This document shows positions 26,237-55,050 of a stretch of 64,000 nt of DNA, piece by piece. The notes beneath the pieces were generated by a model that saw only the letters and a program-made list of their open reading frames with translations, did no database searches and was not told the DNA's origin. The stretch lies in the NCBI RefSeq assembly GCF_018595675.2, contig NZ_CP092333.1:2008001-2072000 (forward strand), in the 5' to 3' direction. The stretch comes from Flavihumibacter fluvii. GTDB taxonomy: Bacteria; Bacteroidota; Bacteroidia; Chitinophagales; Chitinophagaceae. Both the position numbers and the translations under genes were made by a program. Position 1 is the stretch's first letter. Every line of letters starts with the position of its first letter.

Positions 26237-27622
26237 TTAGAATGCGTTTTTGTCTCCTTTTATGGAAAGGAATGCAGTCATAAGGATGATCCTCATATCG
26301 AGGAAAAGAGTCCAGTTTTCCATATACCAAATATCAAACTCAATTCTTTTCTGCAATAAAGTATTGTCAGTGATTTCACCGCGGAATCCATTGACCTGAG
26401 CCCATCCAGTTAGCCCAGGCTTAACAAAATGCCTGATCATGTATTGCTTATAAAGTGAAGAAAAGTCTTCGGTATGTTTTAGCATATGTGGCCTTGGACC
26501 AACCACTGACATATCACCCAAAAAAACATTAAAAAATTGCGGCAATTCATCAATATTGGTTTTACGCATGATCCTACCAAGGCGTGTAATCCGGCTATCA
26601 TTGCGGGTCACCTGTTTTACATTGGCTTCATCATTTACTCGCAAGCTCCTGAATTTGATACACATGAAAGGCTGGTTATTCTTTCCGGAACGTAATTGCC
26701 GGAAGAATACGGGGCCTCTTGAATCGAGCTTTATCAGCAGGGCGATCAACGGAATCAACCAGGAAAGCAGGAATATGATGACGAACGCACTGAATATAAT
26801 ATCGAAAAAACGCTTTTTAAGACGATTTCCGGTATCTTCCAGGGGCTCGTTACGCAATGATAAAACCGGAATATTATCGATGAAATCCACATATATCTGC
26901 CGGTTCACAAATATTTTATAATCCGGGACAAATTTAAAATGGATAAACTCTTTTTCGGCTTCCTTGGCCAGGTCATAAAGGTCTGGAAAATGTTCAGGGG
27001 CAAGGGTTGAATAAATTTCTGTTACATTGTTTTCCTTAACAAAAGTCATGCAATCCTTTAACCCCCCAGTCAAAGGAAAATCCTGATCTGCTGACATCCT
27101 TTCTTTATCTTCGAAGCAGCCTGCAACATTAACAAACTTAGATTCTTCTTTGAAATACTTCATTAAACCACGTGAAATTTCGTTATAGCCAAGAATAACT
27201 ACGTTCTTCTGAAGCTTGAATTTATCTCTCAGGGATAATACCAGGAGGTTGAAGAAAATACGGTTAAACGCCAGGATAGAACCAAAACCAACAATAACCG
27301 ATAAAATGTACAACCTGGAATAGGAGTACCGGTATAAAAAAATGAACAGAAGCAGGAACACAAGGGTAAGGAGATAGCACTTGACGGTCCCTTTGAAAAA
27401 GGTCTCAAAATCCAGCCAGTTTTTACTGAGATACAAGGAAGTAAAATGTACAGAGGCGATCCAAGCCAAATTAATAATAGCAAAAAATACGTGATATTCA
27501 GTTGTTTGGGAAATATCCGCCCGCTCCACGAATAAACTAACTATTACCAATACCAGGTTGAGGGAAAATAAGTCCCATACCCAAAGGATTGACCGGTAAA
27601 ATAAGTAGGATAATTTATTCAT
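26237..27622 (-). CDS. Initiating polyprenyl glycosylphosphotransferase (WcaJ-like)
   Basis: Transfers a sugar-1-phosphate (often glucose or galactose) from a UDP-sugar to undecaprenyl phosphate, the first membrane step of exopolysaccharide assembly. Four N-terminal transmembrane helices (about 8-130), a Rossmann-like middle domain (VVILGYNEISRGLMKYF), then the bacterial sugar transferase domain from about 268 (KKRFFDIIFSAF, a membrane helix, then GPVFFRQLRSGKNNQPF and KFRSL). The C-terminal core has NIDELPQFFNVFLGDMSVVGPRP, with the catalytic Asp-Glu pair in DELPQ. It is the last gene of the minus-strand polysaccharide locus, 9 bases from the convergent HU/CCDC81 gene. Confidence 0.93.
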   Translation of the reverse strand: MNKLSYLFYRSILWVWDLFSLNLVLVIVSLFVERADISQTTEYHVFFAIINLAWIASVHFTSLYLSKNWLDFETFFKGTVKCYLLTLVFLLLFIFLYRYSYSRLYILSVIVGFGSILAFNRIFFNLLVLSLRDKFKLQKNVVILGYNEISRGLMKYFKEESKFVNVAGCFEDKERMSADQDFPLTGGLKDCMTFVKENNVTEIYSTLAPEHFPDLYDLAKEAEKEFIHFKFVPDYKIFVNRQIYVDFIDNIPVLSLRNEPLEDTGNRLKKRFFDIIFSAFVIIFLLSWLIPLIALLIKLDSRGPVFFRQLRSGKNNQPFMCIKFRSLRVNDEANVKQVTRNDSRITRLGRIMRKTNIDELPQFFNVFLGDMSVVGPRPHMLKHTEDFSSLYKQYMIRHFVKPGLTGWAQVNGFRGEITDNTLLQKRIEFDIWYMENWTLFLDMRIILMTAFLSIKGDKNAF

Positions 27623-27661
27623 TTCTGAGGAATAGGTATAGTTTCAGTTAACCTGGATCTT

Positions 27662-28753
27662 TTAAGCATATATCTCTTCTAGTTTATTGATAATTCTTTC
27701 TGCAGTATGCCCATCCCAAAGAGGAGGAATGCTACCCTGTTTCCATTTGCCATCCATAATCTTATTAAGGTAAGGTATTAACTTAAGAGGATCAGTACCG
27801 ATGAGTTCATTTGTTCCCAGTGTAACTGTTTCAGGTCTTTCTGTAGAATCACGCATTGTCATGCAGGGAATTCCCAAAACTGTTGCTTCCTCCGTAATAC
27901 CACCAGAGTCTGTAATAATGGCCAGTGCATTTTTTACGAGGTAAATAAATTCGAGGTAAGCCATTGGTTCAGCCAGAACGAGTTTAGGATTACTGAATCC
28001 AATACTATCCAATATTTTTTTAGTCCTGGGATGTACCGGAAATATAACTTGCCGGTCACCTGTGCAATCCATTATGGTTGACAAGAGGTGATCGAGGTTG
28101 GCCGGATCATCAACATTTGCAGGCCGATGAAGAGTAAGCAGGAAATATTTACCAGATACCAGTTTATTTTTCACCCACAAATCGGGTTGGATCAATCTTC
28201 CAAGGTTATTAATTAGGGTGTCGATCATGGTATTGCCAACAAAATGAATGCGGGCATCTTCAACACCAGCCTTACGAAGGTGTTGGTTAGCCACCTCACT
28301 GGTCGTAAAAAAATGATCGGTAATAGAATCTGTAACGATCCGGTTGATCTCTTCGGGCATGGCCATATCGCCTGAACGAATACCCGCTTCTACATGCACA
28401 GCATCCACACAGAGTTTTTTTGCAGTTATTGTGCAGGCCATTGTGGAAGTAACATCGCCGACTACCAGAATCAGATCTGGGCGGTGTTCCATCAGTTCCT
28501 TTTCAAACCTAACCATTATAGCTGCAGTCTGTTCGGCCTGTGTACCACCACCAGCTTCAAGGTTGGCATGAGGTTCCGGAATACCCAACTGTTCGAAAAA
28601 GTCGGCACTCATTTTTTTATCATAGTGCTGACCAGTATGCACCAGTCTGTATTCGATAACTGCACCTTCCTCCTTTCTTTTCTGAATGGCCCTGATTATG
28701 GGAGAAATTTTCATAAAGTTCGGGCGAGCCCCTGCAACAATCGTTATCTTCAT
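27662..28753 (-). CDS. wecB: Non-hydrolysing UDP-N-acetylglucosamine 2-epimerase
   Basis: Interconverts UDP-GlcNAc and UDP-ManNAc in the cytosol. The 363-residue GT-B-like fold shows GARPNFMKISPIIRAI at the N-terminus, VVGDVTSTMAC, HVEAGIRSGDMAMPEEINR (family signature with catalytic acids), LLTLHRPANVD and ITDSGGITEEA. Its start overlaps the stop of the upstream WecG/TagA gene by 4 bases (ATGA), so the two are translationally coupled. No UDP-ManNAc dehydrogenase (WecC) is present, so the product is probably used as ManNAc, not as ManNAcA. Confidence 0.93.
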   Translation of the reverse strand: MKITIVAGARPNFMKISPIIRAIQKRKEEGAVIEYRLVHTGQHYDKKMSADFFEQLGIPEPHANLEAGGGTQAEQTAAIMVRFEKELMEHRPDLILVVGDVTSTMACTITAKKLCVDAVHVEAGIRSGDMAMPEEINRIVTDSITDHFFTTSEVANQHLRKAGVEDARIHFVGNTMIDTLINNLGRLIQPDLWVKNKLVSGKYFLLTLHRPANVDDPANLDHLLSTIMDCTGDRQVIFPVHPRTKKILDSIGFSNPKLVLAEPMAYLEFIYLVKNALAIITDSGGITEEATVLGIPCMTMRDSTERPETVTLGTNELIGTDPLKLIPYLNKIMDGKWKQGSIPPLWDGHTAERIINKLEEIYA

Positions 28754-29502
28754 TTTTTTATACTGTTATATCCAATCTTTTCTTTAACTACGAGATATGC
28801 AAATTCGAGGTTACCAAACAGGTACCGTTTCCACATTCTTCCAGGTTCCTGAATAACTCTATAGAACCATTCCAGCCCATATTTCTGCATCCAGCCTGGA
28901 GCGCGGTGAACAAAGCCTGCCACTACGTCAAAGCTGCCGCCAACCCCCATTATAAATGGAACATTGATTTCTTTTTTATACTTATTCAGGAAAATTTCTT
29001 TTTTTGGCGAGCTCATCGCAACAAAAAGTATATCAGCTTTCGATTGTCCGATCTGCTGGGCAATCAATAACTCATCATCAGTTGAAAAATAACCATTCCT
29101 GTATCCTGCTACAACCTGATTGCCATATTCGGCAGAATACACGTCCACAACTTTTTTTACAATTTCTTCCTTGGCTCCAAGGAAAAATATTTTATACCTT
29201 TTCCTGTATGCCAGTTTGACGAGCTCACCCATTAAATCTATACCGGCTACGCGCTCTGGCAATGGTTTCCTGAGGAACCTTGAAGCCCAAACTACGCCTT
29301 GCCCGTCAGCATTGATAATATCACAATGTACAATCGACTCTTTAAGTTCTTTGTCTTTATTTGCATTAACAACTTTGGCTGCATTAATCACAACATGATG
29401 AATAGGCTTCTTTTCTGCAAGTGCAACATCAATCATGTCAATTGTTTCCTGCATAGTGATTGGATCAACAGGAATACCGCAAATTGAAATTCTACTGTTC
29501 AT
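28750..29502 (-). CDS. WecG/TagA/CpsF-family glycosyltransferase
   Basis: A GT26-family enzyme; characterised members transfer ManNAc (TagA) or ManNAcA (WecG) to a lipid-linked GlcNAc. Family features seen: VVINAAKVVNANKDKEL (about 40-55), IINADGQGVVWASRFL (conserved Asp), GVGGSFDVVAG and the C-terminal RAPGWMQKYGLEWFYRVIQEP. Length 250 residues. Coupling to wecB, which makes UDP-ManNAc, supports a ManNAc donor here; this is inference. The C-terminal basic stretch may hold the protein at the membrane, as in TagA. Confidence 0.9.
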   Translation of the reverse strand: MNSRISICGIPVDPITMQETIDMIDVALAEKKPIHHVVINAAKVVNANKDKELKESIVHCDIINADGQGVVWASRFLRKPLPERVAGIDLMGELVKLAYRKRYKIFFLGAKEEIVKKVVDVYSAEYGNQVVAGYRNGYFSTDDELLIAQQIGQSKADILFVAMSSPKKEIFLNKYKKEINVPFIMGVGGSFDVVAGFVHRAPGWMQKYGLEWFYRVIQEPGRMWKRYLFGNLEFAYLVVKEKIGYNSIKK

Positions 29503-29542
29503 AACTTATTATTTGTGTGTATGCAGAGTTAAAGTTGCCTGA

Positions 29543-30751
29543 TCACCCTACATTCTCATGGGCTTTTTGCTGAATCTTTTTTAAAGTTGGCTGATCCTGG
29601 TTGAAATATATGGTCATTGCATAAAACATCCAGGATTGAGACCAGCGCATATAGGGAATTCTGGATGAAAAGTATTTATTGACCTGGTAATAAAAATACC
29701 CCTTCTTATCCTGCATGTTGTCAATCGTCCAATGGATTACTTTGTCTATCAATTTCCTATGCGCTTTGAACCGATTCATTTTCACCAGTGTAATAATCAA
29801 CTGCGTTGGCGCATGGATATCCACCGGATAGGTTGTATTGCTGTAATATTTTGATATGCCTTCTGCCGTGAAAAAGGTATTTATATAATAATTGAATCCA
29901 GCTTCGAGGTATTGGTTAAAAGATTCATCCTTTGTGTATTGCTGGAAATCTGAAATACATTCAAGGTTGTACCCAGTGTGGAAATTATCAATCCATTGAT
30001 GAAAATCATAGGTTCCATAAGACCAGGACCCATCTGGCTTTTGGTGCTTGCAGCAAAAAGCAACTGATTTCCTGGCTTCTTCATACAGCTCCTGTTCACC
30101 GGTGTAGTGATACACCCGAGACAAAATGCGGCTACCCAGCAGGGATGCATTGAAAACAACACTATTGTCTGCAGGAGAATAAGAAAATGCAAAATCACCA
30201 TCCTTATCGTATGTTCGGTTAAGATCTTTCAGTACAAAATCACATGTACTCCTTGCCATATCTAGCAGTTTGGGATCCCGGACAATTTCATATGCATCCA
30301 GCAAGGCATTGGCAATAAAGGTAGATGCAACCACAGTGGGTGTAAATTTTGGCTGGTAAAAAGCCCTGGCTTGCCAGTCAAAATTATAGCCCCAGCAGGA
30401 ACCACTGTAACCTGGACTAACGGAATTGGTGATTTTCTCAATAAAAAACCTGATTTTCTCCAGGTAATCATTTTGGGGATCCATCTTATATAACTGGCAA
30501 TAACCGGAAAGGAATATGCCCATTGCTTTGGGATTGTACTCCTTTTTTACCCCAGTAAATGGACGCAGGTTGATAGGCGCCTTTTTGAATGCCTGGATCC
30601 ATGCCAACCTTAAAAAGCGATTTTTCTTTGCAAATGGGATAGCCTGAAAAAACCGGCTATTCAATCCATCGTAGGGGTCATACCCTTTAAAGCCCTCTTT
30701 TTCGCAGAAAGCCTTAAGTCTTGAGAACGAGTCGTAAAATTTACTGTTCAT
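29543..30751 (-). CDS. Alpha/alpha-toroid protein of a polysaccharide locus
   Basis: 402 residues, not confidently assigned. Repeated helical hairpins ending in aromatic clusters suggest a six-hairpin (alpha/alpha) toroid, the fold of several glycan lyases, epimerases and glycosidases. Conserved-looking sites include GSCWGYNFDWQAR (about 115-130), KPDGSWSYGTYDFHQWIDNFHTGYN in the middle third (Asp, His and Trp rich), and IPYMRWSQSWMFYAM near the C-terminus. No signal peptide, so cytosolic. The stop region of the upstream bi-domain oxidoreductase overlaps its start by 11 bases, so the two are coupled. Possible roles are a sugar epimerase, or a lyase-like enzyme acting on nucleotide- or lipid-linked sugars. 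Related proteins are often mislabelled as unrelated enzymes. Confidence 0.6.
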   Translation of the reverse strand: MNSKFYDSFSRLKAFCEKEGFKGYDPYDGLNSRFFQAIPFAKKNRFLRLAWIQAFKKAPINLRPFTGVKKEYNPKAMGIFLSGYCQLYKMDPQNDYLEKIRFFIEKITNSVSPGYSGSCWGYNFDWQARAFYQPKFTPTVVASTFIANALLDAYEIVRDPKLLDMARSTCDFVLKDLNRTYDKDGDFAFSYSPADNSVVFNASLLGSRILSRVYHYTGEQELYEEARKSVAFCCKHQKPDGSWSYGTYDFHQWIDNFHTGYNLECISDFQQYTKDESFNQYLEAGFNYYINTFFTAEGISKYYSNTTYPVDIHAPTQLIITLVKMNRFKAHRKLIDKVIHWTIDNMQDKKGYFYYQVNKYFSSRIPYMRWSQSWMFYAMTIYFNQDQPTLKKIQQKAHENVG

Positions 30752-32897
30752 TAAAACTAACTTTTTGAGGTAAACCAGTTGCCAAACTATCCACTATTCT
30801 GAACGTTGTAAGTGTCGTTAGACAAACCGACCTGAAACTGATTGGGCTTTTACCTCCATTTTTCAGGGCCGCCAGGAATTCATGGACTTCCTCTTTATGA
30901 CCTTTGCCAGCCGATTTCAACTTGATTTCTTTACCATTACTATACAATATACCATCTTTGAAATCATTGATTACACCAATTTTTCCTGCACAAAATACTT
31001 CAATGAGCTCTTTGGGCATCCCCTTTTCCCCGTTTGCAAGGTAGGTAAGGTTGCCAATTGAACCATCTTTGAATTTAACCACAATAGATATGTTGTCGGC
31101 TGGAGTTGTTTTATTGTTATCACTGCTTAAGCAATCAGCATATACCTTTTCAGGCTCAGCACCGGTAAAATATTGCATTAGGTCGATAAAATGGCACATT
31201 TCGCCAATAATTCGTCCGCCCCCAATATCAGGATGCTGTATCCAGTGATCTTTCGGAATCAAGCCGGCATTAACCCTGATATTTATGACCATCGGTTCTC
31301 CGGCATTTTCCATTTCCGCCCTGATCCTTTTACTAATTGGAGCAAATCTGCGGTTGAATCCTACCATTAATGTCCGGTGGTTCTTTTTCATGGCGTCCAC
31401 AACCCCTGCCAGCTGGTCATCATTAATCGCCAGGGGTTTCTCCACATAAACATGCTTATTGGCACTTAAAGCCTTGATAACCAATGCTGCATGCGAAGAA
31501 TGGGGCGTAGCAATGAATATTGTGTTGATATTTTCCTTGGTAAGGATATCCTGCTGCTCGGATGAGCAAAAGTTGAAACCAAACTTATTAGCCACATTCT
31601 TTGCTGTAATTCCCCTTGATGTTACAACGCCATCCAGGGAACCACCCCCCGATTTTACGTTAGGGATAAGGTAGCTCTGAGCAAAACTACCTGCACCAAT
31701 AAAGCCAATATTAATATCTGAAATTGGTTTATGTGCGATTGTAAAAGCTGAAATATGTTTCTTCTCATTCGGTGAATATTTCAGTAGTATTCCAATATGG
31801 GGTTCATGAGTTTTACCTAGAATAATATCATAGGCCTTTTCTGCTTCATTGATATCGAAAACATGCGTAATTAATGGTTGCAGGTTGATCAGTTTTCTTG
31901 ACAGCAGATCCAGGAAAGCCTCCATATTCCGCTGTTCAGTCCACCGCACATATGCAAAGGGGTAATCATGCCCGTTTTCTTCATAATTTGCATCATAACG
32001 TCCTGGACCATAGGAACAGGATATTTTAAGCTCCAGTTCCTTTCTGTAAAAATGCGGATCACGGGGAATATCCATTTTAACTGCCCCCACAATGATGATC
32101 TTTCCTTTTTTACGGCTCAGTTCGGTTGAAAGTTCAACCGGATCATTTGATTGAGCGGCAGCAGTAATGATAATTGAATCAAATCCCTGACCCCTGGTGA
32201 AATTTTCGCAGGCAGCCAATAGGTTCGGGTCATTTCGGTTAAGGGCCATATCAGCAGAATATTCAGCAGCCAACTTCACATATGACTCAGAAAGATCGAT
32301 TCCGAAAACGCTACAACCATTGGCTTTCAAAAGTTGCCCGGTGATTTGTCCTAATAAACCAAGCCCTATAACACATACTTTTTCCCCCAATCTTGGATCA
32401 GCCTGCCTTACTCCCTGAAGTGCTATAGCTCCAAGAGTAGTGAACGCAGCTTCTTCGGAAGTTACATTATCGGGTACTTTAGCTACCAGATTTTGCGGAA
32501 CTGCAATAATTTCAGCATGGGAAGCATAATCAACACCAGCGCAGGCAACTCTGTCTCCAGTTTTAAAAGCACCATTTCTATCCAGAGAAGAAAGTACAGT
32601 ACCGCTGGTGCTATATCCAAGGGCTTTAAGGGAATCCAGCTTTGTTCTTACCTTTTCAATGGTCGCAGAAAGCCCTTCTTTTTTAATATTTTGCAATACC
32701 TGGGCTACCAGGTCTGGGCGCTGCCTTGCTTTGTTCAGTAGATTAGCCTGTGCAACTTTTACAGTACTTCTTTCCGTTCCTGCACTTATTAGTGAAAAGT
32801 TATTCTCCACCAATACCATACCACTTGAAAGCTTCGGCAAGGGTACCTCATCTACATAAAGCTCACCCGTTTTAAAATTCTGAATAACTTGTTTCAT
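30741..32897 (-). CDS. Bi-domain oxidoreductase: zinc-type alcohol dehydrogenase plus Gfo/Idh/MocA
   Basis: A natural fusion of 718 residues. Residues 1 to about 370 form a medium-chain dehydrogenase/reductase (ISAGTERSTVK, TGDRVACAG, nucleotide loop VIGLGLLGQITG). Residues about 385-718 form a Gfo/Idh/MocA oxidoreductase (NIGFIGAGSFAQSYLIPN nucleotide loop, EKPLAIN with the catalytic Lys, and GGGRIIGEMCHFIDLMQYF). Two NAD(P)-dependent domains on one chain suggest a coupled oxidation/reduction of a sugar, for example C3/C4 or C5 chemistry by way of a keto intermediate. This is inferred from the domains. It lies in the polysaccharide locus, 10 bases after asnB, and overlaps the toroid gene. 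Confidence 0.85.
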   Translation of the reverse strand: MKQVIQNFKTGELYVDEVPLPKLSSGMVLVENNFSLISAGTERSTVKVAQANLLNKARQRPDLVAQVLQNIKKEGLSATIEKVRTKLDSLKALGYSTSGTVLSSLDRNGAFKTGDRVACAGVDYASHAEIIAVPQNLVAKVPDNVTSEEAAFTTLGAIALQGVRQADPRLGEKVCVIGLGLLGQITGQLLKANGCSVFGIDLSESYVKLAAEYSADMALNRNDPNLLAACENFTRGQGFDSIIITAAAQSNDPVELSTELSRKKGKIIIVGAVKMDIPRDPHFYRKELELKISCSYGPGRYDANYEENGHDYPFAYVRWTEQRNMEAFLDLLSRKLINLQPLITHVFDINEAEKAYDIILGKTHEPHIGILLKYSPNEKKHISAFTIAHKPISDINIGFIGAGSFAQSYLIPNVKSGGGSLDGVVTSRGITAKNVANKFGFNFCSSEQQDILTKENINTIFIATPHSSHAALVIKALSANKHVYVEKPLAINDDQLAGVVDAMKKNHRTLMVGFNRRFAPISKRIRAEMENAGEPMVINIRVNAGLIPKDHWIQHPDIGGGRIIGEMCHFIDLMQYFTGAEPEKVYADCLSSDNNKTTPADNISIVVKFKDGSIGNLTYLANGEKGMPKELIEVFCAGKIGVINDFKDGILYSNGKEIKLKSAGKGHKEEVHEFLAALKNGGKSPISFRSVCLTTLTTFRIVDSLATGLPQKVSFNEQ

Positions 32898-32907
32898 TAT
32901 TTATGCT

Positions 32908-34803
32908 TCATTTATCTAAATACTCCCTGAACCAGAGCTCCACTGTTAACAGCTGGTAAATCTGGTAAGCGTTATCTTCCAAACCTTTACGGTCGTTTTC
33001 TATCAGCTTTTGGACCACATTATAATTCAAGACTCCCCTTTTTTCAATATTCTCCTTCGATAGCAGGTCATCTACCATAGCTTTAAGGTCTGACGAAATC
33101 CACGACCGGATCGGTGCCCCGAAAGCTGCTTTAGGCCTGTAAATAATACTCTTAGGTAAGAACGACTCAGCTACCTTTTTTAATATATATTTTGATTGAT
33201 TTTTATATATTTTGAATTTCCCTGGTATCTGCATGGCCTTTTCAATCACTTTTTTATCAATAAATGGCACCCTTACCTCAACAGAAGCAGCCATCGATGC
33301 CCTATCAGTATAGGTCAGGTTCAATCCCAACATGAACATACTTAAATCAGTGTTGCACATTTGATTCACAATATCACCCTGGTATTTCGAATTGAAAATG
33401 TCATCATGTTCCTGAACAAGCAGGTTCACGGCTTCCTTATAAGGTGTGGTGACCAAGTTTTGAAGTTGATCCGGACTGTAATAAGAGTAGCTCCGCATAT
33501 AGGTTTGGCTGGGTGGCAGGGACACAAAACTAAAGAACCTTTTTGCCCATCTACCAAACCGAAATCCCTTATTGCCAATTTTTACCGGTAACATATCGGC
33601 AATAATCTGACCAGATTTCCTTACAAATAGCGGCAACCGGTTAAATTTCATGGAAAGCAGTGTTGCCTTCTGCCTTCTGTAACCAAAAAAAATCTCATCA
33701 GCACCCATTCCTGACAATAATACTTTCACTCCTCGTTCCCGGGCAGCCCTGCAAATAATAAACGTATTTATGGCAGCAGGATCACCTATCGGTTCATCAA
33801 GCGTTTTCACCATTTCAGGCAACATCTTTATGATATCAGATGAAATCTCAATTACATGATGGTCCAGTTTAAACTCATCTGCCAGCAATTGGGCATACTT
33901 TTCATCATCAGGCATTTTTTCCACTTGCTTATCACGTCCGATGGTGGAAATCGTGTAGGTTGAAAGATTGGGATTACTTCTTTTCGCCAAAACTGAGATC
34001 AGTGAAGAATCAAGGCCCCCGCTCAGGAAACTGCTCACCGGAACATCAGCAACCATATGCCTGGTGATAGATTCCTGTATAGTTTCAGAAAGTTCCTGTA
34101 CAATCCTATTTTCATCTGACGATTTTGTTCCTGCTGATTCCTCAAGTTCCCAGTATTTCACCATTTTGAATTCACGGCTTCCGTTATAACTTATGTAATG
34201 CGCAGCTGGTAATTTAAAGCAGTTGGCAAACATGGATTCATTGCCCGACACCCATAAATAGTTAAGGCAACTGACTAACGCCTTTTTATTCAGCGACTTG
34301 TTAAATCCCGGGATTCTTACGAGTGTTTTCAATTCGGAACTAAACGCAAACCCACTTTCAATAAAAGTATAGAACAATGGTTTTATGCCAAAATGATCGC
34401 GGGCAATAATAAGGTCATGGGTGACTTTATTATAAATAGCAAAAGCGAACATGCCACCCAACTGATCAAAACTGGCAACACCATAATTGATAAACATTTC
34501 AAGGGCGACTTCTGTGTCACCTGTGGTATCGAAAGCAACCTGCTTTTCTTTGATCAGTTTCTCCTTTAACTCAACATAATTATAAATTTCGCCATTGAAA
34601 ACAATAGCGTAATCTCCTTTATGAAGTGGCTGGTTTGACCTTTCACTCAGATCAATGATGGAAAGTCGCTGATGTGCGAGGGAGATAAAATCATCGCTCC
34701 AAACAGATTGATTATCTGGCCCCCTGTGCTGCTGGATACGATTTGCCATGGCAGCTAATTCCGCATTATTCTTAAATCCTGTAAAGCCTGCAAAACCGCA
34801 CAT
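32908..34803 (-). CDS. asnB: AsnB-type glutamine-dependent amidotransferase
   Basis: Class II glutamine amidotransferase fused to an asparagine-synthetase ATP domain, 631 residues. The N-terminal nucleophile is C2 (MCGFAGF), with the glutaminase fold to about 200 (NRIQQHRGPDNQS, FNGEIYNYVELK). The PP-loop SGGLDSS is at 261-267 and the ATP domain continues to the C-terminus (DEKYAQLLADEF, GMGADEIFFGYRR, SMAASVEVRVPFID). Family members make asparagine. In polysaccharide loci homologues such as WbpS or WbtH amidate the carboxyl of uronic acids. Its position between glycosyltransferase and sugar oxidoreductase genes favours the sugar role, though asparagine synthesis cannot be excluded. Confidence 0.9.
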   Translation of the reverse strand: MCGFAGFTGFKNNAELAAMANRIQQHRGPDNQSVWSDDFISLAHQRLSIIDLSERSNQPLHKGDYAIVFNGEIYNYVELKEKLIKEKQVAFDTTGDTEVALEMFINYGVASFDQLGGMFAFAIYNKVTHDLIIARDHFGIKPLFYTFIESGFAFSSELKTLVRIPGFNKSLNKKALVSCLNYLWVSGNESMFANCFKLPAAHYISYNGSREFKMVKYWELEESAGTKSSDENRIVQELSETIQESITRHMVADVPVSSFLSGGLDSSLISVLAKRSNPNLSTYTISTIGRDKQVEKMPDDEKYAQLLADEFKLDHHVIEISSDIIKMLPEMVKTLDEPIGDPAAINTFIICRAARERGVKVLLSGMGADEIFFGYRRQKATLLSMKFNRLPLFVRKSGQIIADMLPVKIGNKGFRFGRWAKRFFSFVSLPPSQTYMRSYSYYSPDQLQNLVTTPYKEAVNLLVQEHDDIFNSKYQGDIVNQMCNTDLSMFMLGLNLTYTDRASMAASVEVRVPFIDKKVIEKAMQIPGKFKIYKNQSKYILKKVAESFLPKSIIYRPKAAFGAPIRSWISSDLKAMVDDLLSKENIEKRGVLNYNVVQKLIENDRKGLEDNAYQIYQLLTVELWFREYLDK

Positions 34804-34813
34804 ATTGTTAAGT

Positions 34814-35872: not shown

Positions 35873-35893
35873 AGTACAGTAGGATTCAGGAAA

Positions 35894-36853: not shown

Positions 36854-36858
36854 GTAAA

Positions 36859-45122: not shown

Positions 45123-45123
45123 A

Positions 45124-45140: not shown

Positions 45141-45230
45141 AGCTTCGCTCCCTCAGTCCCATTTAGTAAACCGGGGTTAATAAAGTATTTTAAAATCAGG
45201 TTCAGTTGTGGTTACTTGGCAATAAAACTA

Positions 45231-47534: not shown

Positions 47535-47574
47535 AAAAAATATCTGTTTAAGGTAAGTATGGCATGGTTCATTA

Positions 47575-48402
47575 CTACCTGGTGCGGTCAAAAATAATTG
47601 CAATTAAAGCGAGGCCACTCAGGATAGATGGCAACAATGCTGTGAGTCGGCTCTGACTCTGCACTTTAGCATAATTTGCTTCAACATAAATAATATCATT
47701 GTTCTTTAAATAATAATATGGTGACTTGAAAATTGACTCATCATTCAGGTTAATTCTCCTGGTAATTTTCTTCTCATTTTCCTCACGAATCAGCAAAACA
47801 TTTTCTCTTTTAGCAGTAATGTTAAGGTCACCTGCCATACCAATTGCTTCCAGTAAGGATATCTTTTCATTTTCAACTGATACAACTGAAGGCTTTCCGA
47901 CATCCCCTAAAACGGTAACGCGGAAGTTTAATATTCGGATACTTACAACTGGATCAACAAGCAATTTTCGATCTACAAGTGAATGAGCGATTGAATCGGT
48001 CAACTGCTTTTTTGTTAGCCCTTCGGCCTGAACTTTTCCAAGTACCGGAAATGTAATCAGGCCATCAGGATCAACAAGGTAACCAACGGGAGTATACACA
48101 CCGTTAGCCTTGTAACCAACTGGAGTACTAATCGGTGCGTTATACACCTTACTCGCCTCTTCATTTAAGCTGCTAACAACAATACTAAGGATATCCGCTT
48201 TTTGAATTATGGGGTCAAGGTTAGCATTCACCAACGGATATTGTCCCGGAATGCTCTGGTCAAAATACCTGGATTTGGCTGGACTTGCACAAGATGCCGC
48301 GAATAGCAAAAATGGTACTACCAATAATCGTAAAAATACTTTGGTAATATCTGCGAAAAACGCAAAATTATTCATGAGGTAGCAGGGTTTAATGGTTTTC
48401 AT
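47575..48402 (-). CDS. Polysaccharide export lipoprotein (Wza-like)
   Basis: Outer-membrane export pore subunit. 275 residues; the signal ends LLFAASCASPAK, giving a lipidated Cys (C38, or C29 if translation starts at the internal ATG 48375, which gives a more usual signal length). The Poly_export domain follows (LDPIIQKADILSIVVSSLNEEA, about 62-85), then VGYLVDPDGLITFPVLGKVQAEGLTKKQL and one SLBB domain (VTVLGDVGKPSVVSVENEKISLLEAIGMAGDL). A C-terminal hydrophobic helix (LLPSILSGLALIAIIF) resembles the membrane helix of Wza. First gene of the minus-strand locus. Confidence 0.92.
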   Translation of the reverse strand: MKTIKPCYLMNNFAFFADITKVFLRLLVVPFLLFAASCASPAKSRYFDQSIPGQYPLVNANLDPIIQKADILSIVVSSLNEEASKVYNAPISTPVGYKANGVYTPVGYLVDPDGLITFPVLGKVQAEGLTKKQLTDSIAHSLVDRKLLVDPVVSIRILNFRVTVLGDVGKPSVVSVENEKISLLEAIGMAGDLNITAKRENVLLIREENEKKITRRINLNDESIFKSPYYYLKNNDIIYVEANYAKVQSQSRLTALLPSILSGLALIAIIFDRTR

Positions 48403-48742
48403 TAAAGCAGTTAATACAACTCAATATCCATGAAAAACATATCCGTGGATTCACTTGCTTTTAAACAGCCGTAAAAATAGTGTTTCAGGATGCTATTTGC
48501 AAATGTCACCAACATTATATACAAAACGTTCATTTACAGCGCAAAGACTTGTTCTTTATTAATTATATAGTATATGTGGCACAGCAGAGAACGTATATTT
48601 TATAGTAAATATTGCATTTAAATCGCGGGGAAACCCAGCAATGTGAAAAAACTTCTTTCGTTTATATCATACTGAGAAATTTATACCCCGTTTGATTTTG
48701 GCATAAGTTTTGTTTAAAATTTCTCACTTAAAATCCAGTACC
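48403..48742. other. Intergenic region between polysaccharide locus and T9SS lyase-like gene
   Basis: 340 bases separate two divergent genes and must hold both promoters. No exact TAnnTTTG box was found on either strand. AT-rich stretches occur around 48555-48620. A near-match TAAGTTTTG (48704-48712) lies 30 bases before the plus-strand ATG. No JUMPStart/ops-like element, small gene or RNA was recognised. Confidence 0.6.
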
Positions 48743-51700
48743 ATGAAATCCAGTACCCGCCATTTCACGTTAAATACGTGTGTGCTATTGTTACTCTTTC
48801 TGATGAGTACATTTGTAAAAGCCCAAACAATCTTCTTTTCAGACGGCGCAGAAGCTTCAAATGGCCCAGTAATTGGCGGGAGTAATCAATATTCCACCTG
48901 GTCCAATAAGAATACCTATTATGCAAATGCGAGCACATTAAACAGGTCAACTAATTTTAAAAGAGCTGGAGCGTATAGTTACTATATGCGTTTGAATGAT
49001 ATTGGCGTTGATGGATGGCAAGCCGTAAAAACAGAACTCGGGTATGGTTTTGTCCCTGCTGGTTCGCCTACTTATTCAGGTATTTCTGGAAACAACAGAG
49101 CACCTGTTGGCCTGGTATGGATGTCGGCATCAATCCTAATACCAAGCACAAGCAAGGATGATATAACCATTACAGAAATCGCTTTTGATACAAAATGCTG
49201 GCCCGATGATTATACCACACCCACCTACCTTGCAACGGAGAATGGCAGATACAAACTATACCTCACTAAAGTGAATAGTTCAGAGCAGGTAACCGGAGTC
49301 AATACATACGATTGCGGCCCGGTTGTGAAGGATCAATGGGAAGACTGGGTTATGAACCGTAATTATACGCCTAATGATTCAGGTTATGTGCGGCTGTATA
49401 AAAATGGCGTAAAAGTAGTCGAGTACCTGGGCGGTAACTTCAAGCTAACTGGACACGCGAAGGAAGCCTACTACCAGCATGGTTTGTATAAATGGTCATT
49501 TCAAAGCGGCTGGCCATCCGCAGGTACTACATTTACAGAAATGTATTTAGATGAAGTTAAGTTTGGTGGCTATGGCAATACGCTCGCTTCCATGTCACCG
49601 GCTGGCACTACGGTTCCTAGTAATAGTCCACCTAAAGTCACTGTAACTACCCCCATAACCACTACCCTAACATCGATCCAGGTAACAGGAACAGGTACTG
49701 ATGCTGACGGTACGATCGCTTCCTATAAGTGGACACAAAGTTCCGGGCCCAATACAGCAACCATTACTAATGGTAATACAGCTACTGCAACTTTTTCAAA
49801 TCTTATCCAGGGAACCTATACATTTCTGATCACAGTTACGGATAATGCAGGTGCCACTGGTACCGCAACAGTTTCTGTTACAGTCAATTCACAACCAATT
49901 AACCAGGCTCCTGTAGCTAATGCAGGATCAAATAAAACTATTACACTACCGATAAACTCTACACAACTTACTGGCTCAGGTACAGATTCTGATGGAACAA
50001 TTACAGCTTTTAACTGGACCCAGGTTTCTGGTCCGGCTACCGCTACAATTTCCGGTGCTAATACAGCAAATGCTACCATGGGAGATCTTGTACAAGGGAT
50101 ATATACATTTCGGCTCAGGGTCACAGATAATGATGGCGCTACGCATACGGATGATGTGACTGTTACGGTAAATGCGGCACCAGTCGCAAATATTGCACCC
50201 GTTGCAAATGCAGGATCAAATAAAAATATTACACTTCCGACAAACTCTACTGTTCTTACCGGTTCAGGCACAGATGCTGATGGGACAATCACAGCTTATA
50301 ACTGGTCCCAGGTCTCTGGACCTGCAACAGCCACAATTTCCAATTCAAATGCGACAAGTTCAACAATGGGTAATCTTATCCAAGGATTATACACATTTAG
50401 GCTTAGGGTCACTGACAATGATGGAGCAACGCATACAGATGATGTGAATGTAACTGTCAATGCCGCACCTGTCGCAAACCTGGCCCCCGTAGCTAATGCG
50501 GGTAGAAACCAAACCATTACGCTACCAACAAATTCTGTAACTGTAACAGGTTCAGGATCAGATAACGACGGAACAATATCAGCCTTTAGATGGACGCAAA
50601 CTGCAGGCCCTAATACTGCAACAATAGCAAATAACAGCACGGCTTCAACCAGCATTTCAGGTATGGCAAAAGGCATATATACCTTCATGTTAACAGTAAC
50701 CGATAATCAGGGCGCTACAGGTACAGATGAAATTTCTATAACTGTAAATGATATAGTTGTTGCCAATCAGGTTCCGGTTGCAAATGCAGGAGGCAATAAA
50801 TCAATTAATCTTCCAACCAGCAGTGTTTCGATAAATGGATCAGGAACTGACGTTGACGGAACTATCGCATCCTACAAATGGACAGAGGTTTCCGGACCAA
50901 ATTCTGCAACCATTTCCGGCAGCAACCAGGCTTCGGTAAACTTTTCAGGACTAGCCTTAGGAACCTACACATTCCGGCTGACCGTTACCGACAACGACGG
51001 AGCTACCGACGTTGACGATGTTACCGTATCAGTTAATGCTGAAATTGTCCCCAATCTGGCACCTGTTGCTAATGCAGGCGCAAATCAAACGATTACATTA
51101 CCTGACAATTCAATTACTATAACAGGTTCAGGAACAGATTCGGATGGAACAATCGGCAGCTATTCCTGGACACAGGTAACCGGACCAAATACTGCAGTAA
51201 TCGGAAGTACTAATCAGGCTAGCACTGTGTTTTCCGGCCTGGTTGAAGGAACATATACATTCAGGATAACCGTTATTGACAATGAAGGCGCATCTGACGC
51301 TGATGATGTTAACGTAGTGGTGAATCCAGGACAAGCTCCCAATATTGCACCTTTGGCTAATTCCGGGGATAACCAGTCCATTACCTTACCTACTAATTCT
51401 TTAACTATTACGGGGTCTGGTACAGATAATGATGGAACAATTACTGCCTATGGCTGGAGGCAAGTAAGCGGTCCGAATTCTGCTGTAATTGGAACCAATA
51501 ATGCTGCAAGCAGTACTTTCAGTGGTCTCATTGAAGGACTGTATACATTCAGATTAACAGTCACTGATAATGATGGTGCCACAAATAGTGATGATGTTTT
51601 TGTTACTGTTAATCCTGCTCCGGCAGCTCCCTTGAAAAGGGCACCAATAGCGAAAGCAGGGGGTAAAAAAACGGTGAGTTCAACTTCAACACAGATTACG

Positions 51701-52744
51701 GCAGCAGCATCTTATGATACCGATGGCCAGATTACAACCTATACATGGACACAAGTTTCCGGCCCTAATAAAGCAAATATCAGTAATCCAAAAGCAGCTA
51801 CCGCAAATTTGAGCAACCTTGTACCAGGAACATATAATTTTAAATTGGAAGTAATCGACAATGATGGATTGAAGGGTTCTGAAATATTAACTCTGCTGGT
51901 TACAATACCGCCTGTTGCAAAGGCTGGTGCAGATATCACCATCACTTTGCCTACGAATACTGCAACCTTGAATGGTTCAACATCTTCTGATCCGGACGGA
52001 ACGATACAGGCATATAGCTGGTCACAGGTAACAGGTCCAAAAATCTCAACTATTTCATCTGCTTCTTCTGCAAGGACCAATGTAAACAGCCTGGCCACCG
52101 GGGTTTATGAGTTCAAATTGGAAGTAACTGACAATAACGGATTGAAGGATGCGGATACTGTAAAGGTTACTGTTAAACCAGAACCTGTCAATAAAGTGCC
52201 GGTGATCGTAACTTCCACCAATATCGAGCTTACCATGCCAACAGACTCTGTTAGTCTCGATGGCAGTAAATCATACGATCTTGACGGGACCATCAAACTG
52301 CACCAATGGAAACTGGTAAATGGTCCATCTACACCTGTACTTTCCAACCAGAATAAATCGATTGCTACAGCACGTAACCTGGTTGCTGGTATTTACACTT
52401 TCCAAATACTGGTGAGGGACGATAAGGGTGCAACTGTAACCAAAGAAGTAAGCGTTTCAGTTATCGGAAACAATTCATTATCCAATGTTTCCATGAAGCT
52501 ATATCCAAATCCTGTTGCCAGCAATGGTTTAGTGAACCTGCGTATTGATGACAATAACACAGGCAAGGCAATAGTGAGGGTGTACAATATGAATGGAGTA
52601 ATTGTTCACCAGGAAGAGCTCAACAAACAAAACACCCAGTTAACAAAAACTATCAATGTAGGTAATTTACCAAGTGCCACCTATGTGATGAGTGTTCAAT
52701 TTGAGAATAAAAAACCAGTGGTCACCAAGTTCCAGAAATTATAA
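48743..52744 (+). CDS. T9SS protein: polysaccharide-lyase-like domain plus ten PKD-like repeats
   Basis: 1333 residues; start ATG 48743 (MKSSTRHF), preferred over an upstream TTG because it begins a proper signal peptide ending STFVKAQT. Residues about 25-290 look like a jelly-roll polysaccharide lyase/heparin-lyase-like domain (IFFSDGAEAS start, DQWEDWVMNRNY, RLYKNGVKVVEY, TEMYLDEVKFGGYG). Residues about 294-1242 are ten repeats of about 95 residues of PKD/REJ type, each with PVANAG, a DGTI turn, SGP, GxYTFxLxVTDNDGA and an acidic V/T-rich end. The last 90 residues (SMKLYPNPVAS, NMNGVIVHQEEL, LPSATYVMSVQ) are a T9SS type A sorting domain. Secreted to the surface; lyase activity is inferred from the fold pattern only. 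Confidence 0.8.
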   Translation: MKSSTRHFTLNTCVLLLLFLMSTFVKAQTIFFSDGAEASNGPVIGGSNQYSTWSNKNTYYANASTLNRSTNFKRAGAYSYYMRLNDIGVDGWQAVKTELGYGFVPAGSPTYSGISGNNRAPVGLVWMSASILIPSTSKDDITITEIAFDTKCWPDDYTTPTYLATENGRYKLYLTKVNSSEQVTGVNTYDCGPVVKDQWEDWVMNRNYTPNDSGYVRLYKNGVKVVEYLGGNFKLTGHAKEAYYQHGLYKWSFQSGWPSAGTTFTEMYLDEVKFGGYGNTLASMSPAGTTVPSNSPPKVTVTTPITTTLTSIQVTGTGTDADGTIASYKWTQSSGPNTATITNGNTATATFSNLIQGTYTFLITVTDNAGATGTATVSVTVNSQPINQAPVANAGSNKTITLPINSTQLTGSGTDSDGTITAFNWTQVSGPATATISGANTANATMGDLVQGIYTFRLRVTDNDGATHTDDVTVTVNAAPVANIAPVANAGSNKNITLPTNSTVLTGSGTDADGTITAYNWSQVSGPATATISNSNATSSTMGNLIQGLYTFRLRVTDNDGATHTDDVNVTVNAAPVANLAPVANAGRNQTITLPTNSVTVTGSGSDNDGTISAFRWTQTAGPNTATIANNSTASTSISGMAKGIYTFMLTVTDNQGATGTDEISITVNDIVVANQVPVANAGGNKSINLPTSSVSINGSGTDVDGTIASYKWTEVSGPNSATISGSNQASVNFSGLALGTYTFRLTVTDNDGATDVDDVTVSVNAEIVPNLAPVANAGANQTITLPDNSITITGSGTDSDGTIGSYSWTQVTGPNTAVIGSTNQASTVFSGLVEGTYTFRITVIDNEGASDADDVNVVVNPGQAPNIAPLANSGDNQSITLPTNSLTITGSGTDNDGTITAYGWRQVSGPNSAVIGTNNAASSTFSGLIEGLYTFRLTVTDNDGATNSDDVFVTVNPAPAAPLKRAPIAKAGGKKTVSSTSTQITAAASYDTDGQITTYTWTQVSGPNKANISNPKAATANLSNLVPGTYNFKLEVIDNDGLKGSEILTLLVTIPPVAKAGADITITLPTNTATLNGSTSSDPDGTIQAYSWSQVTGPKISTISSASSARTNVNSLATGVYEFKLEVTDNNGLKDADTVKVTVKPEPVNKVPVIVTSTNIELTMPTDSVSLDGSKSYDLDGTIKLHQWKLVNGPSTPVLSNQNKSIATARNLVAGIYTFQILVRDDKGATVTKEVSVSVIGNNSLSNVSMKLYPNPVASNGLVNLRIDDNNTGKAIVRVYNMNGVIVHQEELNKQNTQLTKTINVGNLPSATYVMSVQFENKKPVVTKFQKL
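49622..52470 (+). repeat. Ten tandem coding repeats of about 285 bp (PKD-like modules)
   Basis: Each unit begins near the codons for PVANAG and repeats at about 285-bp steps. Units 2 and 3 (about 49908-50480) are the closest pair: short stretches such as GCAGGATCAAATAAAA recur identically, suggesting recent duplication. Units 8-10 are the most diverged. Confidence 0.85.
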
Positions 52745-52758
52745 CCCTTGAAAACAAA

Positions 52759-52789
52759 AAAATGGCCCACTGTTTAAGTGGGCCATTTT
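52759..52789. terminator. Bidirectional intrinsic terminator
   Basis: Stem AAAATGGCCCAC / GTGGGCCATTTT (12 bp) with a 7-base loop, between the convergent PKD-repeat and SGNH-esterase genes; A/T ends suit both directions. Confidence 0.92.
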
Positions 52790-52803
52790 CATTAAGTTAT
52801 TTA

Positions 52804-55050
52804 CTATTTCACCCTCACTACCCTGGTATTAAATACCTCTTCGTCAGTAATCACCCTTAAATTATAGATGCCTGCACTATGATCAAGGATTTCACCGGCA
52901 GAGAACATATTGTTTCCTTTGAGGAGGTTGATTTTCCTGGTGGAGATCATTTTACCCGAACCATCAAAAATCTGGAGGGTGGCATTCCCTGCCTTTTTTG
53001 TGGTTACACTAACATTTGCACGGTCAGTTACGGGGTTTGGATAGACACTGATTCCAATTAATGAAGAGGTCCTGTTATTAATAGCCACTTCCTGGCTGTA
53101 AATCACCTTACCATCCAGCTGGACTGCTTTAATGCGGTAGTAATTCCTGATTGAGTTAGGTTTTGTGTCAGTATACTGGTAAGTACCTTTTCCGACAAGA
53201 TGACTTCCCTGCACATTGCTAATAGGGGTAAAATCAGTTCCGGTTTCACTACGTTCCACTTCAAAATAATCAAACTTGTCATTATCGCTAGCCTCCCAGG
53301 TCAGGGAGTTTTTGCCGGAATTAGAGGAGATACGGAGGTTTAGTGGATCAACGGGGAGAATGCCTTGGGTAATGGTCAGGTTATTGAAATTAACAAGGCC
53401 AATACCTTCTGCACCACCGGCAGTTATTGCAGGTATAGGTGATACAGATCCAGGCTCAGGGCTAAGAAATCCAATTGCAGTTGGATTAGGTTGCACTCCA
53501 ACTGGTGTGAAGTTAACCCGTAAAACAAAGTTTTTGGCAGGTGGGGTTGCTGTATTTACAATGGTTGCAGAGGTAATATTATAGTTGCCCCCCTTTAACC
53601 GGATAAGGCTCTTAATGTCTCCTCCAGGTGCATTAATAACTGCCAGATCATCAGTAGGTCTTTTAAAATACATGGTCACCTGGCTGGCAACAGTAGGGGA
53701 ACTTCTTGCTGTAAACGTGGCTGACAAAGGTTCAGGTGACAAAGAGTTGTCGGGAAGTATATAGGAATAGAAATCCTTTTTTATAAGAGATGTCACGCGA
53801 TCTCCAATTTCACGATATCCGACCCTTTGCCCGATTTCGTAATTATAATGACAATTATCAATCGCCTGATTAATATTATTTGTAGAAACAATTTGCATTT
53901 CCTTCTTTGCACCATTAAATGAATTAGAAATATTTAATTCAGCCTGTTGTATTTCGGACGCTGCAACAGCATTATTTCCTCCACCGCAACCTGGTTTGAT
54001 CTGTATCATATAATACTTATCCGCGTTACCAAAATCCTGTTCCCAGTCAACAGCTAAAGTGCTAAAGGCATTAAAATATTGCGCTGTAGTCAATGCAAGG
54101 GCATTGCCACCTGTAAATGTATTCGATTCACCATGGAACCAGATAATAGCCCTGATACCACCTACTAATCCAGCAGCATTCAACCTGGTCAATTCCCTGC
54201 CATAATTAGTCGTTAAATCATATTTGTTTAAATCATTTCTCTGGAAATAACTGATCGGGTTGCCCAATTCTGCCCCATTGATAATACAAACTGGCATATT
54301 GTGCTCAGATACAATGCGCGCTCCAATCCTCATACCAAATTGGCCCGTATTATGATCTGAATTGTAATCAGCATTTGCATCTCCAATTCCCCAGGTCCAC
54401 AAAGCGGGATTGACGCCACCCCCAAAAGTTCGCACAAAATTCCTGTTAGTTCCTGCTTCTGTATTTGCTTTATTCCAATCAGGCCCATAAACTATGGGGT
54501 TAGTCCAAGAAGTGGACCCGAATGGTTTTCCCTCCGCATTGGATTGTCCGTTAATATAGAATACATCACCTGCAACAATGTCCAGATCACCTGCAATATA
54601 TGTTTCAGCGCCGCCACTACTTACACCGAACAATATAAACGCATAATTTTTCGCTTCAGCGGTCAAATAATATTGGTAACGGAAAATCCCTGATGCATCG
54701 ATGGCAAAATCAATTGAAGCACCTAACTGGTCTGTTGTTGGACCAGAAAAGAAATTCCAGCCGCTGACCCCATCTACATCCTCTCTATAAACTTTCAATC
54801 GCATAAAACTATAACTCGACCCTATACTAGTGCCTTTAATCAATACCTTACCTTTCAATTTACCTTTATCAGGTCCCGTGTTGGGATCTGGATAAATTCT
54901 TGGGTAAAGCTGTAGTGTTTTTGGAAAACTGTCAAGAGTTACCTGACTAAAGATTTTAGTCTGGATAAAAGATAAGCCTAAGGTAAGGCAACAGACAGTA
55001 AGGCAGAATTTAACATTCAGGTACGTAGATTTGTGATTCATCGATCCCAT
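52804..55050 (-). CDS. T9SS-secreted SGNH esterase (sialate O-acetylesterase-like)
   Basis: 748 residues from ATG 55050 (MGSMNHK; 55041 also possible). A TTG at 55065 lies in the likely promoter and was not used. Signal peptide ends FIQTKIFSQ. After a beta-rich N-terminal domain, residues about 165-420 carry the carbohydrate-esterase family signs: VFYINGQSNAEGKPFG with the nucleophile Ser in GQSN, AIIWFHGESNTFTGG, and a late NCHYNYEIGQRVGYREIG with the expected catalytic His region. A fibronectin-like segment (DPLNLRISSNSGKNSLTWEAS) precedes the C-terminal T9SS sorting domain (ISVYPNPVTDRANV). Likely removes acetyl groups from a glycan outside the cell. Confidence 0.85.
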   Translation of the reverse strand: MGSMNHKSTYLNVKFCLTVCCLTLGLSFIQTKIFSQVTLDSFPKTLQLYPRIYPDPNTGPDKGKLKGKVLIKGTSIGSSYSFMRLKVYREDVDGVSGWNFFSGPTTDQLGASIDFAIDASGIFRYQYYLTAEAKNYAFILFGVSSGGAETYIAGDLDIVAGDVFYINGQSNAEGKPFGSTSWTNPIVYGPDWNKANTEAGTNRNFVRTFGGGVNPALWTWGIGDANADYNSDHNTGQFGMRIGARIVSEHNMPVCIINGAELGNPISYFQRNDLNKYDLTTNYGRELTRLNAAGLVGGIRAIIWFHGESNTFTGGNALALTTAQYFNAFSTLAVDWEQDFGNADKYYMIQIKPGCGGGNNAVAASEIQQAELNISNSFNGAKKEMQIVSTNNINQAIDNCHYNYEIGQRVGYREIGDRVTSLIKKDFYSYILPDNSLSPEPLSATFTARSSPTVASQVTMYFKRPTDDLAVINAPGGDIKSLIRLKGGNYNITSATIVNTATPPAKNFVLRVNFTPVGVQPNPTAIGFLSPEPGSVSPIPAITAGGAEGIGLVNFNNLTITQGILPVDPLNLRISSNSGKNSLTWEASDNDKFDYFEVERSETGTDFTPISNVQGSHLVGKGTYQYTDTKPNSIRNYYRIKAVQLDGKVIYSQEVAINNRTSSLIGISVYPNPVTDRANVSVTTKKAGNATLQIFDGSGKMISTRKINLLKGNNMFSAGEILDHSAGIYNLRVITDEEVFNTRVVRVK

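Follow-up and report, generated by a model that had tools for sequence, protein, structure and literature searches.

Why would a bacterium that assembles a surface polysaccharide encode, directly beside the assembly genes, two secreted proteins that resemble a polysaccharide lyase and an acetylesterase? The question is raised by a 64,000-nucleotide stretch of the Flavihumibacter fluvii genome (the window; bases 2008001–2072000 of a 5.0 Mb genome on one contig), in which 17 co-directed minus-strand genes (26237–48402) make up a Wzx/Wzy-type polysaccharide locus. An earlier note, made from the sequence alone, had described this locus and proposed that the cell exports enzymes able to cut and deacylate its own glycan. 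Our analysis of open reading frames (ORFs) and Pfam matches bore out the 17-gene locus, with the putative polymerase Wzy, the third glycosyltransferase and the FemAB-like gene below threshold and the SGNH gene without a family match.

The explanation that we favour, to which as a whole we give a probability of about 0.6, is a fixed Flavihumibacter surface-polysaccharide locus that reaches from a serine dehydratase gene to groEL and has conserved initiation and export ends (Wzc, Wza) and an exchangeable middle cassette. Its export end would host two slots for cargo of the type IX secretion system (T9SS), one with a resident depolymerase and the other with an acyl-editing esterase. As read from the sequences, the protein of each slot joins a variable catalytic module to a conserved holder made up of a signal peptide and an Ig/PKD tail. 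The first slot, transcribed away from wza, holds a PF14099 lyase-fold domain in 12 genomes of the genus and a DUF4832-type domain in one (G108), and the lyase is inherited with the cassette. Slot 2, toward groEL, holds the esterase in the 12 genomes that have the MBOAT/SGNH gene pair and not in the one that lacks it, and its module is replaced independently of the cassette.

Two secreted proteins at the export end

The lyase-like gene starts at 48743, divergent from wza, and the esterase gene starts at 55050, convergent to the lyase-like gene:

48743..52744, plus strand: T9SS-exported lyase-like protein, with signal peptide, PF14099 domain (48827–49600), PKD repeats and T9SS tail (about 52499–52720)
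52804..55050, minus strand: T9SS-exported CE20/SIAE-like esterase, with signal peptide, variable catalytic module (53356–54945), C-terminal Ig-like region and T9SS tail

The earlier note had called both proteins T9SS-exported, one lyase-like and the other esterase-like, and matches to PF14099, PF03629 and Por_Secre_tail confirmed this. The starts ATG 48743 and ATG 55050 agree with the N-termini of relatives. Por_Secre_tail was over its cut-off in both proteins, and both signal peptides were seen by eye. The genome encodes SprA, the T9SS pore, and has 28 matches to Por_Secre_tail, 25 of them over the cut-off. With a signal peptide, a C-terminal sorting domain and a T9SS in the genome, both proteins have the features of predicted T9SS cargo.

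Conservation of the locus in Flavihumibacter

Fifteen genomes of the genus, including that of the window, were searched for the esterase, the lyase domain, Wzc and the GH88-like gene of the cassette. The series Wzc, Wza, divergent PF14099 gene and convergent esterase gene was found on one contig in 11 of the 15 (the window, G008, G147–G153, G155 and G158), and the order was kept in all 11 of these contiguous loci, the window counted. groEL came next after the esterase in the 10 loci whose contig extends far enough, the contig of G008 ending earlier. G152 has an extra FemAB-like gene between lyase and esterase, and G151 and G153 have additional ORFs between esterase and groEL. All parts were found in G154, spread over separate contigs, and G108 has a variant locus. 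G156 (55% complete) and G157 (75% complete), in neither of which groEL was found, were left out of judgement. Lyase and esterase genes thus stood at the locus in 12 of the 13 judgeable genomes, which supports the pairing that the earlier note had described, and the constant order in all 11 contiguous loci exceeds what chance would give.

The MBOAT gene, its SGNH partner and the FemAB gene were present in all 12 of these loci, and the MBOAT/SGNH pair is duplicated in G150 and G158. The GH88-like gene was found in just 9 of the 15 genomes (and in 10 of 147 genomes sampled from the family), so the middle of the locus varies. Two arrangements of the lyase genes were also observed. G152 (F. solisilvae; L108–L110, L138; G152:C5 at about 41500 and 64000) has a PF14099 lyase gene at either end of the locus, one of the two adjoining the initiating transferase gene, and G151 and G153 have lyase genes in tandem at the locus.

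Inheritance of the lyase with the cassette

The lyase tree grouped the window with the G008 group (support 100/100) and G150 with G158 (100/100), and the trees of Wzc and MBOAT gave the same groupings. In contrast, the tree of flanking genes, which was built from GroEL, NusB, d3 and SdaA and was only 32% filled for G008, placed the window with G150 (100/100). A forced clade of the window and G150 was rejected for the lyase (p = 9.4e-5) and for Wzc (p = 1.1e-70). Since the lyase, Wzc and MBOAT trees contradict the flanking genes, the lyase has moved with the cassette and the export genes.

A different domain in the lyase slot of G108

At the same site G108 has a different cassette, which gave no match to MBOAT, the SGNH partner or FemAB and is not accompanied by the esterase, and neither the lyase domain nor a full-length esterase was found in the rest of that genome. 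The protein encoded divergently from its wza (L217:16529–19852; 1107 residues) has PKD repeats and a T9SS tail, and a DUF4832 domain (E = 2.4e-17) with a sub-threshold DUF4874 replaces the lyase domain; we take both DUFs to be putative glycosidase-like barrels. When its tail was compared with 15 lyase tails from the locus, 13 of them scored 106–160, while esterase and paralogue tails scored 87 at most, and lyase tails made up 13 of the top 14 scores. The tail of an off-locus lyase (L151) scored 154. Two locus tails scored low, namely that of the G152 gene beside the initiating transferase (67) and that of the first G151 gene (10). Because the G108 tail is closest to lyase tails, the catalytic domain appears to have been exchanged on a related secretion holder.

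Fold and active site of the lyase-like domain

The domain of the window protein matched PF14099 with 59.6 bits (cut-off 29.9). Structure prediction, which the earlier note had suggested comparing with polysaccharide lyase (PL) families, gave a confident lyase fold: the model had a predicted local distance difference test (pLDDT) score of 92, and its best PDB match was the glucuronan lyase 2zzj (Z = 24.8, 217 residues, 2.4 Å, 18% identity), the next row having Z = 18.1. A profile search of solved structures found 2zzj at E = 9e-23 and also heparin lyase I, while a single-sequence search of solved structures gave nothing useful for the lyase, the G108 domain or the esterase. The fold list also had the binding domains of botulinum and tetanus toxins, which were treated as common jelly rolls. 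PL20 is the family label of the Trichoderma reesei glucuronan lyase 2zzj. By its predicted fold and its sequence, the window domain is a PF14099/PL20 relative, and we do not assign it as a PL20 enzyme.

An active-site consensus of RxE, QWH and YFKxGIYKW was derived from 57 aligned lyase domains, and the corresponding motifs of the window domain are KTE, DTK and YYQHGLYKW. The consensus Arg, Gln and His are therefore Lys, Asp and Lys in this allele. As the Gln is common to the family consensus, 2zzj and heparin lyase I, its replacement by Asp puts the putative lyase activity of the window allele in doubt. The earlier note had named a non-catalytic jelly roll as the outcome that would speak against its proposal; the lyase fold was confident, and the allele is a putative lyase. 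Given the three changes and the long PKD stalk, the domain could instead bind glycan without catalysis and tether the polymer via the stalk. We consider this improbable, as the His column is variable (30 His, 15 Lys, 8 Gln, 2 Asn and 2 Ile among the 57 domains), and the characterised 2zzj, which in the profile alignment has the Gln, also lacks the His (heparin lyase I has QWH). Moreover, the window allele retains the Glu of RxE and the Tyr-Lys of GIYKW. The consensus Arg varies in the family and was not seen in 2zzj.

By genome, the slot motif is QWH in G149, G151 and G152, QLH in G150 and G158, NIH and NVH in G153, and NTK in the G008 group. A tandem-lyase protein encoded elsewhere in the genus has the x-T-K variant too, in its second domain. 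Being common to the window clade and to that domain, the variant is conserved and not a product of random decay, which again argues against a non-catalytic module. In some alginate lyases with this fold, a Lys serves in catalysis. A further active-site variant, QWQ or QWN, occurs in lyase relatives of Dyadobacter (L148, L155, L156, L167, L170–L172), where Gln or Asn replaces the consensus His.

Replacement of the esterase module

The window esterase matched the SASA family PF03629 with 47.3 bits (cut-off 24.8). Its model (pLDDT 82) has an SGNH-like core flanked by strand-rich regions, and its PDB matches were led by the CE20 acetylesterase 7kmm (Z = 27.7, 400 residues), with a cyanophage tailspike second (Z = 26.6) and mammalian SIAE at Z = 21.4–21.8. 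N4 and G7C tail proteins stood further down the fold list of the module (53356–54945). Counted from codon 55065, Ser175 (in GQSN), Glu313 and His406 are retained in 12 of 12 modules; Asp403 is present in the window and three other modules, the remaining 8 of the 12 having a different residue. On the strength of its family, predicted fold, Ser and His, the protein is classed as CE20/SIAE-like SGNH.

The signal peptide and the tail of the esterase are kept, and the catalytic middle of about 500 residues is replaced. Among five close species (G008, G147, G148, G155 and G154) the tails are 86–96% identical and the modules 35–43%, except for G148–G154 (70%), and the borders are sharp. Between the loci of G147 and G148, 32 of 33 ORFs had a match; 30 of these are 91–100% identical, one doubtful ORF is 87% identical and the esterase 54%. 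At the DNA level, identity drops to 38–64% across about 1.8 kb and then returns to 94–99%. The module tree paired G148 with G154 (100/100) and rejected both a G147+G148+G008 clade (p = 3.6e-10) and a G154+G155 clade (p = 4.1e-5). The tail tree did not reject G148+G154 (p = 0.10), and it cannot decide, because the tails are too alike. As a control, two off-locus T9SS esterase paralogues were 95% identical over their full length between G147 and G148, and 88–89% identical to those of G008, so module replacement is, as far as this control goes, special to this locus. Conversion by paralogues was not indicated as the source of the modules, no paralogue in the subset fetched being more than 45% identical to a locus esterase.

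A matched pair of both enzymes with the glycan was rejected for the esterase, since its module is replaced over near-identical assembly genes. The proposal of the earlier note that the cell exports enzymes for its own glycan therefore held in part: from its position and inheritance, cutting of the cell's own glycan by the window lyase is plausible, and the data do not support an esterase with a fixed match to this glycan. Module replacement over near-constant glycan genes suggests that what is selected is either the outer acyl pattern or the recognition of the esterase protein itself. Along the second line, the esterase could be a variable recognition or decoy protein (toward phages, predators or kin) with its esterase activity secondary, as the sharp-edged replacement between near-identical loci and the cyanophage tailspike as second-best fold match would allow. 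This seems unlikely to us, because Ser175, Glu313 and His406 are kept in every module, as expected under selection for catalysis.

Distribution beyond the locus

In the family sample, scored for the top candidates within each genome only, the esterase was found at E = 1e-30 in 2 of 147 genomes, both of them Flavihumibacter, and esterase paralogues occur elsewhere within the genus. Relatives of the lyase domain were found at E = 1e-12 in 10 of the 147. The earlier note would have been contradicted by wide occurrence of the two T9SS genes without the locus. On this point the esterase is confined to the genus in the family sample, with paralogues elsewhere in the genus, and lyase relatives occur in the 10 family genomes and, within the genus, also away from the locus.

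Sixty named lyase loci came from one scan: 22 of Flavihumibacter (or the G008 record), 21 of other Bacteroidota, 14 of actinobacteria and 3 others. A tblastn search of their neighbours covered the flanks that had been fetched, and some of the contigs are no longer than 4–11 kb. An initiating transferase, Wzc or Wza lay near the lyase in 6 of the 21 other Bacteroidota loci; the chance of a Wza in a random 20 kb is very roughly 1%, a rough estimate from the 1–9 Wza per genome among those listed. Pfam matches of selected neighbours confirmed polysaccharide genes beside the PF14099 lyase in Arachidicoccus (L183), Dyadobacter (L156) and Pontibacter (L142). None of the 14 actinobacterial loci gave a match to genes of the window locus in the fetched flanks. 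Ten of the 22 Flavihumibacter lyase loci are at the locus, one (L159, F. soli) lies by an initiating transferase and AsnB, and 11 are elsewhere; 10 of these 11 gave no match to the window genes, and L151 had a GT4-like and an ABC-transporter-like match.

These data bear on a nutrient-scavenging explanation, by which both secreted enzymes target foreign polysaccharides and stand beside the locus for historical reasons. The closest folds would suit it, since they include the glucuronan lyase of a fungus (2zzj) and an acetylesterase that belongs to a xyloglucan utilisation locus (7kmm), and so would the actinobacterial loci and the further lyase-domain copies in the window's genome, one of which is 75% identical and lacks a T9SS tail. 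However, the two genes keep their position in all 11 contiguous loci, the lyase is inherited with the cassette, G108 switched its enzyme along with the cassette, and lyases near polysaccharide export or initiation genes recur in the 6 Bacteroidota loci outside Flavihumibacter. We therefore regard scavenging as unlikely.

Several copies deserve description in their own right. The 75% identical copy (G000:C1:624793–625563; L032:9784–10623) is a lone lyase domain of 279 residues with a signal peptide and the motif DTK, has neither PKD nor T9SS tail, and has neighbours that look unrelated. A tandem-lyase protein with a T9SS tail (G000:C1:492973–494571, the same as L033; L127–L132) occurs in several Flavihumibacter genomes with no locus genes nearby, and its first domain is without most of the consensus residues. 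In Arachidicoccus ginsenosidivorans (L183:6432–18721) a sulfotransferase gene lies two genes ahead of the PF14099 lyase gene, and one gene past the lyase comes the initiating transferase gene, followed by Wza and Wzc; perhaps this cluster makes a sulfated glycan with its own lyase.

Gene content of the polysaccharide locus

The locus is bounded by a serine dehydratase gene on one side, and groEL, nusB and coaE follow past the esterase gene. Its initiating transferase, Wzx, Wza and Wzc had Pfam scores over the cut-offs, and UDP-GlcNAc 2-epimerase, a WecG/TagA glycosyltransferase, AsnB, MBOAT, polysaccharide deacetylase and two GT4 glycosyltransferases were likewise backed by Pfam. All 17 genes lie on the minus strand:

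26237..27622, minus: initiating sugar-1-phosphate transferase, WbaP-like (PF02397, 220 bits; found in each of the 11 contiguous genus loci, and in that of G108)
27662..28753, minus: UDP-GlcNAc 2-epimerase (PF02350, 317 bits)
28750..29502, minus: WecG/TagA/CpsF glycosyltransferase (PF03808, 209 bits)
29543..30751, minus: GH88-like protein (PF07470, 39.8 bits, cut-off 26.6, partial match)
30741..32897, minus: fusion of zinc-type alcohol dehydrogenase and GFO-IDH-MocA oxidoreductase (PF00107, PF01408)
32908..34803, minus: AsnB-type amidotransferase (PF00733, 298 bits)
34814..35872, minus: GT4-like glycosyltransferase, weak (PF13692, 26.9 bits, cut-off 27)
35894..36853, minus: putative SGNH partner of MBOAT (equivalent next to MBOAT in 12 of 12 genus loci)
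36859..38283, minus: MBOAT O-acyltransferase, DltB-like (PF03062, 103 bits; DltB model under its cut-off; in 12 genus loci)
38325..39068, minus: FemAB/GNAT-like transferase (PF02388, 22.7 bits, cut-off 24; in 12 genus loci)
39117..39971, minus: polysaccharide deacetylase (PF01522, 69.6 bits)
39981..41156, minus: GT4 glycosyltransferase (PF00534, 105 bits)
41161..42339, minus: GT4 glycosyltransferase (PF00534, 68.5 bits)
42401..43636, minus: putative Wzy polymerase (Wzy_C at E = 0.0028, under the cut-off; polytopic by eye)
43752..45122, minus: Wzx flippase (PF01943, 51 bits)
45231..47603, minus: Wzc co-polymerase/tyrosine kinase (PF02706, PF13807, PF13614)
47575..48402, minus: Wza-type export protein (PF02563, 56.6 bits; SLBB)

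The GH88-like gene (29543–30751) and the dehydrogenase/oxidoreductase fusion (30741–32897) were not named in the earlier note. The SGNH gene (35894–36853) had no Pfam match at E = 0.001 and one weak, unrelated match at E = 10. The GH88-like gene lies inside the biosynthesis cluster, its product has no signal peptide apparent by eye, and the gene is also found in polysaccharide clusters of other genera in the family.

Proposed roles and points against them

The slot-1 enzyme would act as a resident depolymerase, by which the cell sets the length of its chains or sheds its own glycan. More tentatively, the slot-2 esterase may edit acyl groups on surface glycans, so that a change of module would shift the outer pattern and leave the backbone unchanged. 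An extension of this is tentative and rather doubtful: a two-layer serotype system, in which the backbone is determined by the cassette together with its matched depolymerase and the replaced esterase module rewrites the acyl pattern, could allow fast coat variation driven by phages or predators with the biosynthesis genes untouched. If so, the module, with its likeness to tailspike esterases of phages, would belong to the same arms race.

The following points weigh against the explanation that we favour. No UDP-glucose dehydrogenase was recognised in the cassette by the Pfam scan of the locus genes, so an acidic glycan is an assumption. The active-site Gln and two other consensus residues are substituted in the window lyase. 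Copies of the lyase stand away from the locus genes within the genus, and foreign glycans are therefore possible substrates. The link between MBOAT and the esterase comes from a single genome (G108) that is without both. The clades for the lyase, Wzc and esterase module tests were chosen after the trees or identities were known. In a partial Mantel test over 11 genomes, the lyase domain showed no significant association with the cassette once species was taken into account (partial r = 0.17, p = 0.09), so the linkage of lyase and cassette rests on the tree conflict, and the lyase may track the cassette through mere adjacency.

The same test, in which the species matrix was SdaA with u1 (SdaA being cut at the region ends in G147, G148 and G155), does not single out the lyase, for p was 0.07 for the esterase module, 0.07 for Wza, 0.047 for PHPT, 0.026 for the lyase tail, 0.0095 for Wzc and 0.0085 for the esterase tail. 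With species tested given the cassette, the esterase module (p = 0.0045), PHPT (0.0065) and the esterase tail (0.03) were significant and the rest were not. The tracking of species by the esterase module counts as a further point against, since it means that replacement is not the whole story.

Coat-cutting enzymes are known from few pathways, and a fixed slot whose cutting domain follows the coat, next to an esterase with its domain replaced within an almost unchanged locus, would be a natural set of matched pairs. Such a set makes both the fit of lyase to coat and the drivers of esterase replacement testable. PF14099 lyases by polysaccharide genes in other Bacteroidota genera suggest a wider principle.

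Comparison with known systems

The pneumococcal cps and Klebsiella K loci have a fixed site, conserved export genes and an exchangeable middle, and the window locus resembles them in its fixed ends and variable centre. Those loci are not known to be flanked by two secreted enzymes whose catalytic modules are replaced. A search of the open-access literature found no title or abstract opening that describes this arrangement or module replacement in a T9SS esterase.

For the esterase, the closest fold is the CE20 acetylesterase XAC1771 (7kmm), whose Ser, His and an Asp are also present in the window protein. XAC1771 works in a xyloglucan utilisation locus, and a T9SS holder is not described for it in the accessible part of the report (PMC8245568). 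For the lyase domain, the closest solved relative is the Trichoderma reesei glucuronan lyase 2zzj, which differs in being fungal and in retaining the Gln that the window allele has lost; according to the part of the source available, a Gln sits in the cleft of the enzyme (PMC3764139).

The Sphingomonas sphingan clusters with SpnR/GelR are like the window in having, as far as the accessible text goes, a putative lyase in a surface-polysaccharide cluster. An own-polymer lyase of this type has its gene in or beside the biosynthetic cluster, as was found here in all 11 contiguous loci. The SpnR/GelR lyase, unlike the window protein, is not known to be a T9SS cargo. Overexpression of gelR freed sanxan from the cell surface, and module exchange is not described for this lyase in the portion of that paper at hand (PMC5399355). 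PelA, from the excerpts available, is a glycan-cleaving enzyme of an exopolysaccharide locus that yields a secreted short form (PMC9894940); it is a periplasmic hydrolase (PMC10269871) and not a T9SS cargo, in which it differs from the window lyase-like protein. With SpnR/GelR and PelA as precedents, the position and inheritance of the window lyase fit the role of a putative cutter of the cell's own coat.

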